A stretch of DNA of 64,000 bases from Thermotoga profunda AZM34c06 (GTDB taxonomy: Bacteria; Thermotogota; Thermotogae; Thermotogales; DSM-5069): positions 639,413 to 703,412 of the forward strand of contig NZ_AP014510.1 of NCBI RefSeq assembly GCF_000828675.1. Direction: 5' to 3'. The translations under genes were made by a program, and so were the position numbers. Below, piece after piece: positions 61,554 to 64,000 of the stretch. Numbering within the stretch: the first letter of the stretch is position 1; each line of letters starts with the position of its first letter. The notes beneath the pieces are model-generated. The model saw nothing but the letters and a program-made list of their open reading frames with translations, was not told the origin of the DNA and searched no databases.

Positions 61554-61571
61554 ACCCCCTATGGGGTTCAC
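61550..61571. terminator. Hairpin between rubredoxin and bioY
   Basis: GTGAACCCC (61550-61558) pairs perfectly with GGGGTTCAC (61563-61571) around CTAT. It covers the stops of both convergent genes. There is no T-run on the plus side, so terminator strength is uncertain. Confidence 0.55.
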
Positions 61572-62137
61572 CTTGTGATCTTTCTAAAAGCAAAATAAGT
61601 CGCACTGACCAACATGATTTTTATCAAGTCACCGGGAATGAATGGCAATAATCCCATCGAAAGTAATTTTGGAAGACTCAGCTGAACCTGCTTGAACGAA
61701 AACCACAAGTACAATTGTGTTAAACCAAAACTGTATATAATGCCAAAATTGGCAACAAGAAGTATTGTCACAGTGTTAAACACTTTGAACCTATTTGGCT
61801 TGAAAATTTGGCTTATGAACAGCGATGCAAAGATAAAACCTATGAGATAACCTCCCGTTGGTCCGATGAGAGTATGAAAACCAGAATTATTTCCAGAGAA
61901 CCATGGAATGCCAAGCACACCTAATAGTACATAGAGTATCTGACTGAACACTGCCAATTTGTTTATAAACAACGGAGCGAGCAAAATCACAAAGGTTTGA
62001 CCAGTTACTGGCACGGGACTGAATGGAAGAGGAATTCTGATCTGAGCTGCAATGCCCGTTAGGAAAGTGAAAACAAGTGTTACCAAAACCTTGTACCACA
62101 GATTTTCTCGTGAGAGTATTTCTTCGCGAGTTATCAC
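61568..62137 (-). CDS. bioY: Biotin transporter S-component BioY
   Basis: 189 aa membrane protein of the BioY family. Recognised by IRIPLPFSPVPVTGQTFVILLA, LYVLLGVLGIPWFSG, GPTGGYLIGFIFASLFI and FIPGDLIKIMLVS. It may import biotin alone or with an ECF module, whose T-component candidate is at 21.8 kb; no EcfA ATPases are nearby. The ATG at 62137 starts 23 bases after the VUT transporter gene. Confidence 0.95.
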   Translation of the reverse strand: MITREEILSRENLWYKVLVTLVFTFLTGIAAQIRIPLPFSPVPVTGQTFVILLAPLFINKLAVFSQILYVLLGVLGIPWFSGNNSGFHTLIGPTGGYLIGFIFASLFISQIFKPNRFKVFNTVTILLVANFGIIYSFGLTQLYLWFSFKQVQLSLPKLLSMGLLPFIPGDLIKIMLVSATYFAFRKITR

Positions 62138-62160: not shown

Positions 62161-62841
62161 TCAGTTTTTGCCAAGTATATCTTTTTTTAGCATATTGACC
62201 CCAGCATACACAACCCACGTATCGACATAATCCAGTGCAAACTCAATAACTGTGGTTGTAAGGTATATATTTAGCAGTGTTCTGAAATCGTATATTCCTA
62301 CGAATGCCAAACTCACGAAAACGAAATTGTCCAAGATTTGTCCAAGTTTTGTCGCGATATTGTTTCTCATCCACAATTTTGTTTTAGTTCTCAGTCTATC
62401 GTGTATCCAGACGGCAAAATAGCCCGAGAGTATATAAGCAATCCAACTGGCAAGAGCTATTCTCGGTGTGAAGGCAAAGGCATTTGAAAGATAACCCTGA
62501 GCTACATCGTTTGAAGAAGGTATATATCCTACATAAACAAGTCCAAGTAATACGAAAATGAATTGAGCAAAAAAACCTATCCAGATGGCTTTTCTCCCCT
62601 CTCTTTGTCCATAGATCTCTGTGATGATCGAATAGACAGCGAAAGCCATACCCATGCTCATATTTGCAGCCGTCACTTCAAGACCAAGGAGGTTAAAGAG
62701 TTTTGCCACTCCTAAATTTGATGCAACTATCAGAGTAGCAAGGGCTACGTATAATCCTTCTTTTTTCAGAAATCGTATGGCAAACAATACTGTCAGACAT
62801 GAAACTATATACTCAAGTCCCAAAAAGAGAAAGTTAGTCAG
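62161..62841 (-). CDS. VUT family (YhhQ-like) putative queuosine precursor transporter, probably starting at CTG
   Basis: About 226 aa with six helices. The YhhQ/COG1738 pattern is visible: KKEGLYVALATLIVASNLGVAK, AFAVYSIITEIYGQREGRKAI, LASWIAYILSGYFAVWIHDRL, and LGQILDNFVFVSLAFVG. Known members take up queuosine precursors. CTG 62841 lies seven bases after GAGGTG and gives an N-terminus of MTNFLFLGLEYIVSC, which fits the family; TTG 62823 has no ribosome binding site. queA at 10.4 kb uses the same pathway. I saw no preQ1 riboswitch upstream. Confidence 0.9.
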   Translation of the reverse strand: MTNFLFLGLEYIVSCLTVLFAIRFLKKEGLYVALATLIVASNLGVAKLFNLLGLEVTAANMSMGMAFAVYSIITEIYGQREGRKAIWIGFFAQFIFVLLGLVYVGYIPSSNDVAQGYLSNAFAFTPRIALASWIAYILSGYFAVWIHDRLRTKTKLWMRNNIATKLGQILDNFVFVSLAFVGIYDFRTLLNIYLTTTVIEFALDYVDTWVVYAGVNMLKKDILGKN

Positions 62842-63002
62842 TAGACATCACCTCTTTGAAGATTATCGCATTGAAATTTTTTCGAAAGTACTAAGAGAAA
62901 GAAAAGTCTTTTGAAAAAACATATACTCAAAGAAAAATCAATCGAGCTTTGTGCTGCATTATTTTTTACCTTTCAAAAATAAAGGTGTAATTTTCTGATA
63001 GA

Positions 63003-63008
63003 TATAAT
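63003..63008 (+). promoter_or_regulatory. -10 box of the methionine synthase leader transcript
   Basis: TATAAT (63003-63008); the expected start is near 63015, 20 bases before the leader GTG. No clear -35 at 16-18 bases. The 160 bases between here and the VUT start (62842-63002) are AT-rich; I see nothing else in them. Confidence 0.5.
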
Positions 63009-63035
63009 AAGAAAAATGAAGATGGAGGTTTTGCA

Positions 63036-63128
63036 GTGAAAAGTCTTGGTATATTTATTCACTTTGAGAACAACGTGATAGTTATGATAATGTGCATTCA
63101 TGCCCCTGGAGGTGCTCCAGGCATTTAA
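63036..63128 (+). CDS. Leader peptide (30 codons) upstream of the methionine synthase genes
   Basis: GTG 63036 follows GGAGGTTTTGCA and opens a 30-codon frame ending at TAA 63126-63128. The peptide is MKSLGIFIHFENNVIV then MIMCIHAPGGAPGI. It has two internal ATG codons and a TGC close together, then a Pro/Gly-rich end. The last codons lie inside RNA hairpins that precede a strong terminator, the usual layout of transcription attenuation. Two Met codons are few for a classic Met attenuator, so the peptide itself might stall the ribosome. Confidence 0.6.
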   Translation: MKSLGIFIHFENNVIVMIMCIHAPGGAPGI

Positions 63129-63154
63129 TCGTGCTTGGAGGTACTAAAAGGGGC
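63102..63154 (+). promoter_or_regulatory. Alternative hairpins (putative attenuator) before the terminator
   Basis: Hairpin A: CCTGGAG (63105-63111) with CTCCAGG (63115-63121). Hairpin B: CTCCAGGCA (63115-63123) with TGCTTGGAG (63132-63140, one G-U pair), which excludes A. Outer pairing: GCCCCT (63102-63107) with AGGGGC (63149-63154), which uses part of the terminator's 5' arm and can enclose B. So B plus the outer stem would be an antiterminator, and A would favour termination. Confidence 0.55.
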
Positions 63155-63183
63155 GTTTCCAAAAATGGGAACGCCCTTTTTTT
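63146..63183 (+). terminator. Strong rho-independent terminator in the methionine synthase leader
   Basis: GGGCGTTTCC (63151-63160) pairs with GGGAACGCCC (63167-63176, one G-U) around AAAAAT. It is extended by A-T pairs to 63146 and followed by a run of seven T (63177-63183). It stands between the leader peptide and the first structural gene, with 30 bases to the next GTG. Confidence 0.9.
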
Positions 63184-63212: not shown

Positions 63213-63779
63213 GTGAGTGAGGTTTTTTACCCAGGAAAACTCGATTGCATGCCAGATAAGAAAATCTTTTTGGCGAGAGCAGGGGCAAGATATGGTAAGC
63301 TCGATGAAGATTTCATACATCGTGTCAATGAACTGTTTTTGATCGCACTTGAGAAAATAGAACCTGTTGTTTATTACAGAACATCAGATCTTTCTATACT
63401 GCCAAAAGAAATCATTCCATCGAGTTTTGGTAATATCAAGAAAATGACGATATTTTTATCCACACTTGGTTCAGCGGTAGATACACTGATATCACAGTTA
63501 TCTGAGCAAGGAAAAACCTTTGATGCTTTTATAATTGATTCTTGGGCATCTGAGGCACTTGAAACCCTCAACGAGAATTTTGATCAATCACTCAGGGAAA
63601 GATTTGGTATGGGTACGATGAGGTTTTCTCCAGGTTATGGGAATGTTGATCTGAGGATTAATAAGTACATAGTTAAAGAATTTTTGGGAGTTGATCAAGT
63701 GACGGTTTTAGACAGTGGCGTTATGGTTCCAAGAAAAACCACGACGTGCATGGTGGGGTGGTTCAATGAAGAGAAGTGA
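63213..63779 (+). CDS. Free-standing methionine synthase reactivation-domain protein (TM0269-like)
   Basis: 188 aa. It matches the C-terminal activation domain of cobalamin-dependent MetH, which binds S-adenosylmethionine to remethylate inactive cob(II)alamin. The core motif RFSPGYGNVDLRINKYIVKEF corresponds to RxSPGYG-DLPL-x-Q in MetH. The late RKTTTCMVGWF corresponds to the SAM-contacting end. In Thermotoga maritima the equivalent protein is TM0269. GTG 63213 with GGAGGG. The next gene is metH itself, overlapping by 14 bases, so the normal MetH is split. Confidence 0.9.
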   Translation: MSEVFYPGKLDCMPDKKIFLARAGARYGKLDEDFIHRVNELFLIALEKIEPVVYYRTSDLSILPKEIIPSSFGNIKKMTIFLSTLGSAVDTLISQLSEQGKTFDAFIIDSWASEALETLNENFDQSLRERFGMGTMRFSPGYGNVDLRINKYIVKEFLGVDQVTVLDSGVMVPRKTTTCMVGWFNEEK

Positions 63780-64000
63780 ATTTTTGCAGATGTTGAGGGA
63801 AAAGGTTTTATTCTTAGATGGCGCTTATGGCACGGAGTTTTTCAAGAGGGGATACAAAGGTTTGATAGAGTTGCTCAATATAAGTAAACCAGAGATCGTT
63901 GAAAGACTTCAAAGCGATTATATCCAAGCTGGCGCAAACATCCTGCTTACAAATACTTTCAGCGCCAATAGAATGAAATTGAGAGCGCATGGCTTTGAAT
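63766..64000 (+). CDS. metH: Cobalamin-dependent methionine synthase, N-terminal fragment (cut by window edge)
   Basis: ATG 63766 opens a frame still open at the window end (78 codons shown). It starts with the homocysteine-binding domain: LREKVLFLDGAYGTEFFKRG, KPEIVERLQSDYIQAGANIL and TNTFSANRMKL, the standard S-methyltransferase barrel start (DGAMGT-like and NTFxAN). It transfers a methyl group from methyltetrahydrofolate via cobalamin to homocysteine. Overlap with the preceding reactivation gene suggests translational coupling. The zinc Cys ligands lie beyond the edge. Confidence 0.93.
   Translation, partial: MKRSEFLQMLREKVLFLDGAYGTEFFKRGYKGLIELLNISKPEIVERLQSDYIQAGANILLTNTFSANRMKLRAHGFE

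Follow-up and report, generated by a model that had tools for sequence, protein, structure and literature searches.

How methionine synthesis is controlled in Thermotogales is a question for which no explanation was found in the searchable literature, and it is raised by the end of the 64,000-nt stretch of Thermotoga profunda DNA analysed here (the window): what is the role of the short frame and the alternative hairpins that precede the methionine genes actD-metH?

The leader and the operon downstream

The presence of a leader at 63003-63183 was confirmed. A first-pass annotation of this DNA had described a promoter, a ribosome binding site, a 30-codon frame, hairpins, an outer pairing and a terminator with seven T, and on checking the sequence every one of these elements was found at the position named beforehand (Table 1). 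The encoded peptide ends in VMIMCIHAPGGAPGI, and the stop codon lies directly 3' of the protector hairpin 1:2, in which 63100-63104 pair with 63120-63124, and 63107-63111 with 63115-63119. The two Met codons of the frame, ATG at 63084-63086 and ATG at 63090-63092, are followed by a Cys codon, TGC, at 63093-63095. The leader region folded below all of 200 dinucleotide shuffles (-58.9 vs -42.5 kcal/mol, z = -4.0). An Rfam riboswitch covering the region, which would have refuted the first-pass reading, was not encountered: no family reached its curated threshold, and permissive thresholds gave only weak, terminator-like matches and no riboswitch.

Table 1 Elements of the leader and the first genes of the operon (positions in the window)
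Feature	Position	Strand	Basis or remark
-10 box of the leader promoter, TATAAT	63003-63008	+	sequence
Shine-Dalgarno of the leader frame, GGAGG	63024-63028	+	sequence
Leader peptide frame, GTG start, 30 codons, MKSLGIFIHFENNVIVMIMCIHAPGGAPGI, then stop	63036-63128	+	kept in four genus members
Control codons Met-Ile-Met (ATG ATA ATG)	63084-63092	+	Met cluster in leaders of seven families
Segment A, GUGC, base of the protector stem, directly 3' of the Met codons	63092-63095	+	pairs with 63131-63134
Protector hairpin 1:2, hides B	63100-63124	+	sequence; folding of relatives
Segment B, GCCCCU	63102-63107	+	complementary to terminator 5' arm AGGGGC, 63149-63154
Antiterminator core hairpin 2:3	63112-63144	+	63112-63123 with 63132-63144
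Segment C, GUGC, 3' of the stop codon, partner of A	63131-63134	+	A:C complementarity
Intrinsic terminator	63148-63183	+	stem 63148-63179, seven T 63177-63183; 5' arm 63149-63154 can pair with B instead
actD, separate activation domain of methionine synthase, 188 aa, first gene	63213-63779	+	1J6R match
metH (start), activation domain missing, extends past the window	63766-64000	+	domain content

The actD product has no Pfam match, and it matches chain A of the T. maritima structure 1J6R, 'methionine synthase' (E = 1e-20), which we take to be the separate activation domain of this enzyme. MetH contains only the S-methyl_trans, Pterin_bind and B12-binding domains and ends after the last of them. 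The two genes are followed, in this order, by those for aspartate kinase, HcyBio (DUF39, homocysteine formation), an ApbE-like protein, metF and asd, and this gene content means that a single leader precedes a near-complete methionine pathway.

Two further observations concern the upstream side. Genes for transporters of the BioY family (61568-62137) and the Vut_1 family (62161-62823) lie on the - strand, divergent from the methionine operon. Directly upstream of the leader promoter, at 62965-62990, there is an imperfect inverted repeat, TTTACCTTT-caaaaat-AAAGGTGTAA, which is possibly the site of a regulator; a TTTAC...GTAA arrangement is found upstream of the leader promoter in all four members of the genus, even where the upstream gene is a different one, and is loosely present at the metQ leader of genome G002.

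Conservation of the leader in the genus and across Thermotogota

The T. profunda genome (2.19 Mb, one contig) has three companions of its genus among the 103 Thermotogota genomes used, and in all four actD-metH is preceded by the leader; a homology scan of genome contigs returned only one close relative, an uncultured Pseudothermotoga, which was already in this set. Promoter, ribosome site, Met-Ile-Met, stop position, hairpins and terminator are common to the genus, the string TATAATA being invariant in its four members as well as in the G002 metQ leader. Hairpin 2:3 shows compensatory changes among relatives, most of which also have a ribosome site ahead of the start codon. The N-terminal half of the peptide is divergent among the four members with the frame intact, and its length (28-30 codons) changes by whole codons, a pattern that looks like that of a translated frame whose N-terminus is unimportant.

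Leaders were searched for in the phylum Thermotogota only. The pattern TATGATAATGYGCAYN{1,4}GCCCC also matched a distant family, ahead of metQ-metN, and a covariance model built from five leaders (the four of the genus and this distant one) was run over the 103 genomes. Its matches fell in six families and most were directly ahead of metQ (in genus g27, which we take to be Mesotoga, and in G033), HcyBio/DUF39 (G002, G011), metF (G016) or aspartate kinase (G006, G007); in seven Thermotoga-like genomes (genus g13) they preceded an uncharacterised gene. Four matches (L057, L060, L069, L070) were discarded as terminators only, without a Met cluster or a methionine gene. For leaders found by model or pattern, it should be considered that the shared motif is in part a consequence of the search. 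Since the covariance search favours its own motif, metQ genes were also taken by protein homology alone and their upstream regions were read without any motif. Leaders were found in this way in G018, in seven genomes (G038-G041, G043, G054 and G055) of family f10, which we take to be Petrotogaceae, and at the second metQ of four Mesotoga genomes. All had a short frame, a Met cluster (MMM, MMMM, MCM or MVM) and a terminator, and their RNA sequence was unrelated.

By our own count the combined searches gave 39 leaders, spread over 34 genomes of 12 genera and 7 families, and they precede genes of the methionine pathway (metH, metQ, HcyBio/DUF39, metF, aspartate kinase); the exception is Thermotoga, in which no function is known for the gene that follows. 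The short pattern ATGATRATGYRYN6GCCC gave 17 matches in the 103 genomes, all at leaders, and none when reversed as a control. No leaders were found in Fervidobacteriaceae, nor ahead of actD-metH in sister genera of the same family; the HcyBio genes of Fervidobacteriaceae and the sister genera had no terminator directly upstream, and in several genomes they are inside operons. Lack of conservation of the frame or the hairpins in relatives, the other outcome that would have refuted the first-pass reading, did not occur. Judged from these comparisons, the leader is more than chance, its layout recurring in the four genus members and across the phylum.

Clusters of two to four in-frame Met codons are present in every one of the 39 leaders, also in those known from metQ homology alone, and take the form M[I/M/V/C]M or MMMM in leaders of seven families. 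The concern that two Met codons would be too few for an attenuator is therefore met by the relatives, which carry two to four, and by E. coli trpL, which has two Trp control codons. Segment B starts 5-11 nt after the last Met codon (16-17 in g13) and is complementary to the terminator 5' arm, for example in T. profunda (GCCCCU:AGGGGC), G039 (GGUCUUCUC:GAGAAGGCC), G054 (GCAACCGA:UCGGUUGC) and g13 (GCCGGCCCCUCGA:UCGAGGGGCCGGC), the pairing in the latter lying further downstream and being 13 bp long. When compared with dinucleotide shuffles, complementarity in the B zone had p < 0.05 in 12 of the 14 lineages and 0.066 in one more (Fisher 3e-15), with p = 0.003 for the T. profunda leader; g13 failed the test, as most of its B is not within the zone. 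The five lineages known by metQ homology only gave p = 0.066, 0.002, 0.026, 0.011 and 0.006, which combine to ~3e-6 by our own arithmetic. Complementarity between A and C (Fisher p = 2e-6 over 14 lineages) is weak in the T. profunda leader (p = 0.14) and strong in relatives, and involves sequences that are wholly different between leaders (GCGCAC/GUGUGC, GUAC/GUAC, UGCG/CGCA, UGGCAUU/AAUGCCA). A terminator was present in 31 of the 31 leaders analysed, and the C-terminal ends of the peptides and the RNA sequences differ between families. The conserved frame, the Met cluster, the complementarity of B to the terminator and the target genes have in this way been established computationally.

A second internal promoter at TATGATAAT was also considered and was rejected, as it cannot account for Met codons that persist where those bases change.

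Proposed mechanism and competing explanations

We consider it very probable that the leader is a ribosome-mediated transcription attenuator which senses charged Met-tRNA and controls the operon from actD to asd, a proposal for which there are no expression data. With plentiful methionine, the ribosome would pass Met-Ile-Met, reach the stop at 63126 and cover parts of the antiterminator, whereupon the terminator would form and transcription would end. When Met-tRNA is short, the ribosome would wait at the Met codons, where it would cover the base of the protector hairpin as well as segment A and leave B free or nearly free (the first base of B falls inside the assumed footprint when the A site holds the last Met codon); 2:3 would form, B would pair with the terminator 5' arm and RNA polymerase would read into the operon. 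Ribosome stalling, its timing and the direction of the response are inferences from sequence and folding. What attenuation demands of the leader itself is present, namely a frame with its own ribosome site, conserved codons for the amino acid of the pathway, and an antiterminator and a terminator that are mutually exclusive. The first-pass annotation had already suggested attenuation by leader translation, with stalling at the Met codons and an outer pairing that captures the terminator 5' arm, and this suggestion is supported by the phylum-wide conservation of the Met cluster and the pairing.

The RNA preceding the terminator was folded either unmasked or with its 5' side masked as far as a ribosome waiting at the last Met codon extends. 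The unmasked RNA of most leaders formed the A:C/1:2 protector and the masked RNA formed hairpin 2:3. T. profunda and G065, whose protector stems are weak, favour 2:3 with and without masking, and therefore it may be the arrival of the ribosome at the stop, and not the protector, that brings about the OFF state of these two leaders. The mean occupancy of the terminator 5' arm by the antiterminator was 0.72 with the ribosome at the first Met codon, 0.48 at the last Met codon, 0.19 at the stop and 0.75 without a ribosome (0.69, 0.45, 0.09 and 0.72, respectively, at 60 C). This modelled order, high at the Met codons and low at the stop, fits classical attenuation, and the expected change of fold between a ribosome at the control codons and one at the stop was obtained in silico, except in T. 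profunda and G065. It should be noted that the stop-codon case drops all RNA upstream of the ribosome, which is a simplification, and that B sits at the rear edge of the ribosome. Given that unmasked RNA favours the antiterminator in the occupancy model, an untranslated leader might read through; equilibrium folding cannot settle its behaviour.

An alternative also raised beforehand is that the nascent peptide acts by itself; in the form considered here, a C-terminal MIM[CR]xxAPxxxPG would arrest the ribosome in response to methionine or SAM, as TnaC or SpeFL do. This idea was attractive from the genus alone, the end APxxxPG[IVF] before the stop codon being conserved there and in G002, and was abandoned after reading the Mesotoga and Petrotogaceae leaders. 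In other families the peptide ends in NALVSSGA, MMMWHVRSS... or MCMPWQPTL..., and only the Met codons persist. Moreover, the Ala-Pro and Pro-Gly codons that are conserved fall on RNA segments B and 2, and residues outside the helices (GG, KD, QN) vary. Arrest would call for residues conserved near the stall site beyond the constraint on the RNA, and this is not met, the C-terminal residues differing between families. Only close relatives have the Pro/Gly-rich end, and its residues follow from the RNA helices; the peptide is not needed as an explanation, and we regard its involvement as very unlikely.

It is scarcely credible that the leader is instead a small-molecule riboswitch (for SAM, SAH, methionine or cobalamin) that contains an open frame by coincidence. 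Strong alternative structures with a terminator ahead of metH and metQ would agree with such an RNA, as would the large amount of primary sequence common to close relatives, but the leader has no Rfam match, its members across the phylum share no aptamer sequence, only complementarity and Met codons, and the length of the frame is kept in multiples of three despite the divergent N-terminus. We give equally little credit to a translation-coupled attenuator that would sense the overall rate of translation, or an amino acid such as Cys or Ile, and not methionine specifically. TGC and ATA codons do lie in or beside the T. profunda cluster, and TGC had been put forward as a control codon, which it is not: relatives have Arg, Tyr, Trp or Pro in place of Cys, and Met, Val or Cys in place of Ile, while the Met codons stay and the target genes are methionine genes. 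Finally, a plain upstream terminator with an accidental frame and no regulation, which a terminator strong by itself would allow, can be practically dismissed in view of conservation ahead of methionine genes in 12 genera and of the near-constant distance from the Met cluster to B.

Known attenuators and the SAM-I riboswitch

Like the classical attenuators (trpL, hisL, leuL, thrL, pheL), the Met-tRNA attenuator proposed here has a short frame, control codons for the pathway, alternative hairpins and a terminator ahead of the operon. It differs from them in its signal, methionine, in its phylum, Thermotogota, and in the way the terminator is prevented: the terminator 5' arm is captured directly by B, a segment close to the control codons, around the inner 2:3, whereas in the classical layout 2:3 shares segment 3 with the 3:4 terminator. 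The principle is ordinary; the specificity, the phylum and the layout are new as far as the searchable literature shows. Leader-peptide attenuators have been described for Trp, His, Leu, Thr, Phe, Ile/Val and others in Proteobacteria, Actinobacteria and Firmicutes, and a survey from 2013 listed His, Leu, Thr and Trp attenuators in Rfam, Ile/Val and Phe attenuators elsewhere, and none for Met (PMC3766115). A Met leader of 29 aa, MSTTSDRTPATEATTTPGARCMCRRMCAF, has been predicted in Streptomyces lividans (metL); it is likewise short, with Met codons, and precedes a methionine transporter operon, metNIQ, on a leaderless transcript with no typical terminator (PMC8079986). It differs from the present leader in having no recognised terminator and in being known from one species, and the sequence likeness is limited to the Met codons. 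Within the searchable literature, which leaves out most subscription papers, we found no other methionine leader peptide and no earlier report of leader-peptide control in Thermotogota.

Two other RNA devices work without a translated frame. A Met-specific T-box also answers tRNA-Met shortage by preventing termination, but it senses uncharged tRNA-Met, which it reads directly; RF00230 had no match in the window at either the gathering or a permissive threshold. The SAM-I riboswitch (RF00162), an RNA that binds SAM without translation, is found in Petrotogaceae ahead of the same metQ and HcyBio operons. Its covariance model had no match in the leader, and no SAM-I riboswitch was found in genomes of the order of T. 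profunda. Among 30 genomes with metQ, 19 have a leader ahead of it and 9 a SAM-I riboswitch, located 170-690 nt ahead of the gene and on its strand, so that one or the other was present in 28 of the 28 genomes with upstream sequence; the two left out are G046, whose contig ends 190 nt away, and G034, in which the gene is cut. As far as genome comparison can tell, the leader and the SAM-I riboswitch replace each other on orthologous operons, which provides a natural comparison of two sensors of one pathway, charged tRNA and SAM.

We think it likely that the leaders represent a phylum-wide attenuator of its own design, in which the Met cluster and the arm-capturing B have been kept, or have evolved repeatedly, while nearly all else changed, and which moves between metH, metQ, HcyBio, metF and aspartate kinase and trades places with SAM-I riboswitches. 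If true, this would be a first on two counts within the searchable literature, as a complete methionine leader-peptide attenuator and as leader-peptide control in Thermotogota. It would offer Thermotogales a mechanism for methionine control and bring methionine, as well as a deep-branching and largely thermophilic phylum, within the range of leader-peptide attenuation.

Some individual loci deserve mention. Orthologous metQ or HcyBio operons of family f10 have a SAM-I riboswitch in the place of the leader in G035-G037, G046-G053 and G055. In four Mesotoga genomes (L140, L141, L142, L090) a second copy of metQ has a leader of its own, with the cluster ATG GTG ATG (Met-Val-Met). In the seven Thermotoga-like genomes (L072:338-853, L061-L068) the leader, FEQGILSDMIMC..., lies ahead of an uncharacterised gene of ~171 aa, which had no Pfam, NCBIfam or PDB match and adjoins a gene that we take to encode an encapsulin; for this ~171-aa protein, the leader predicts a methionine-related role.
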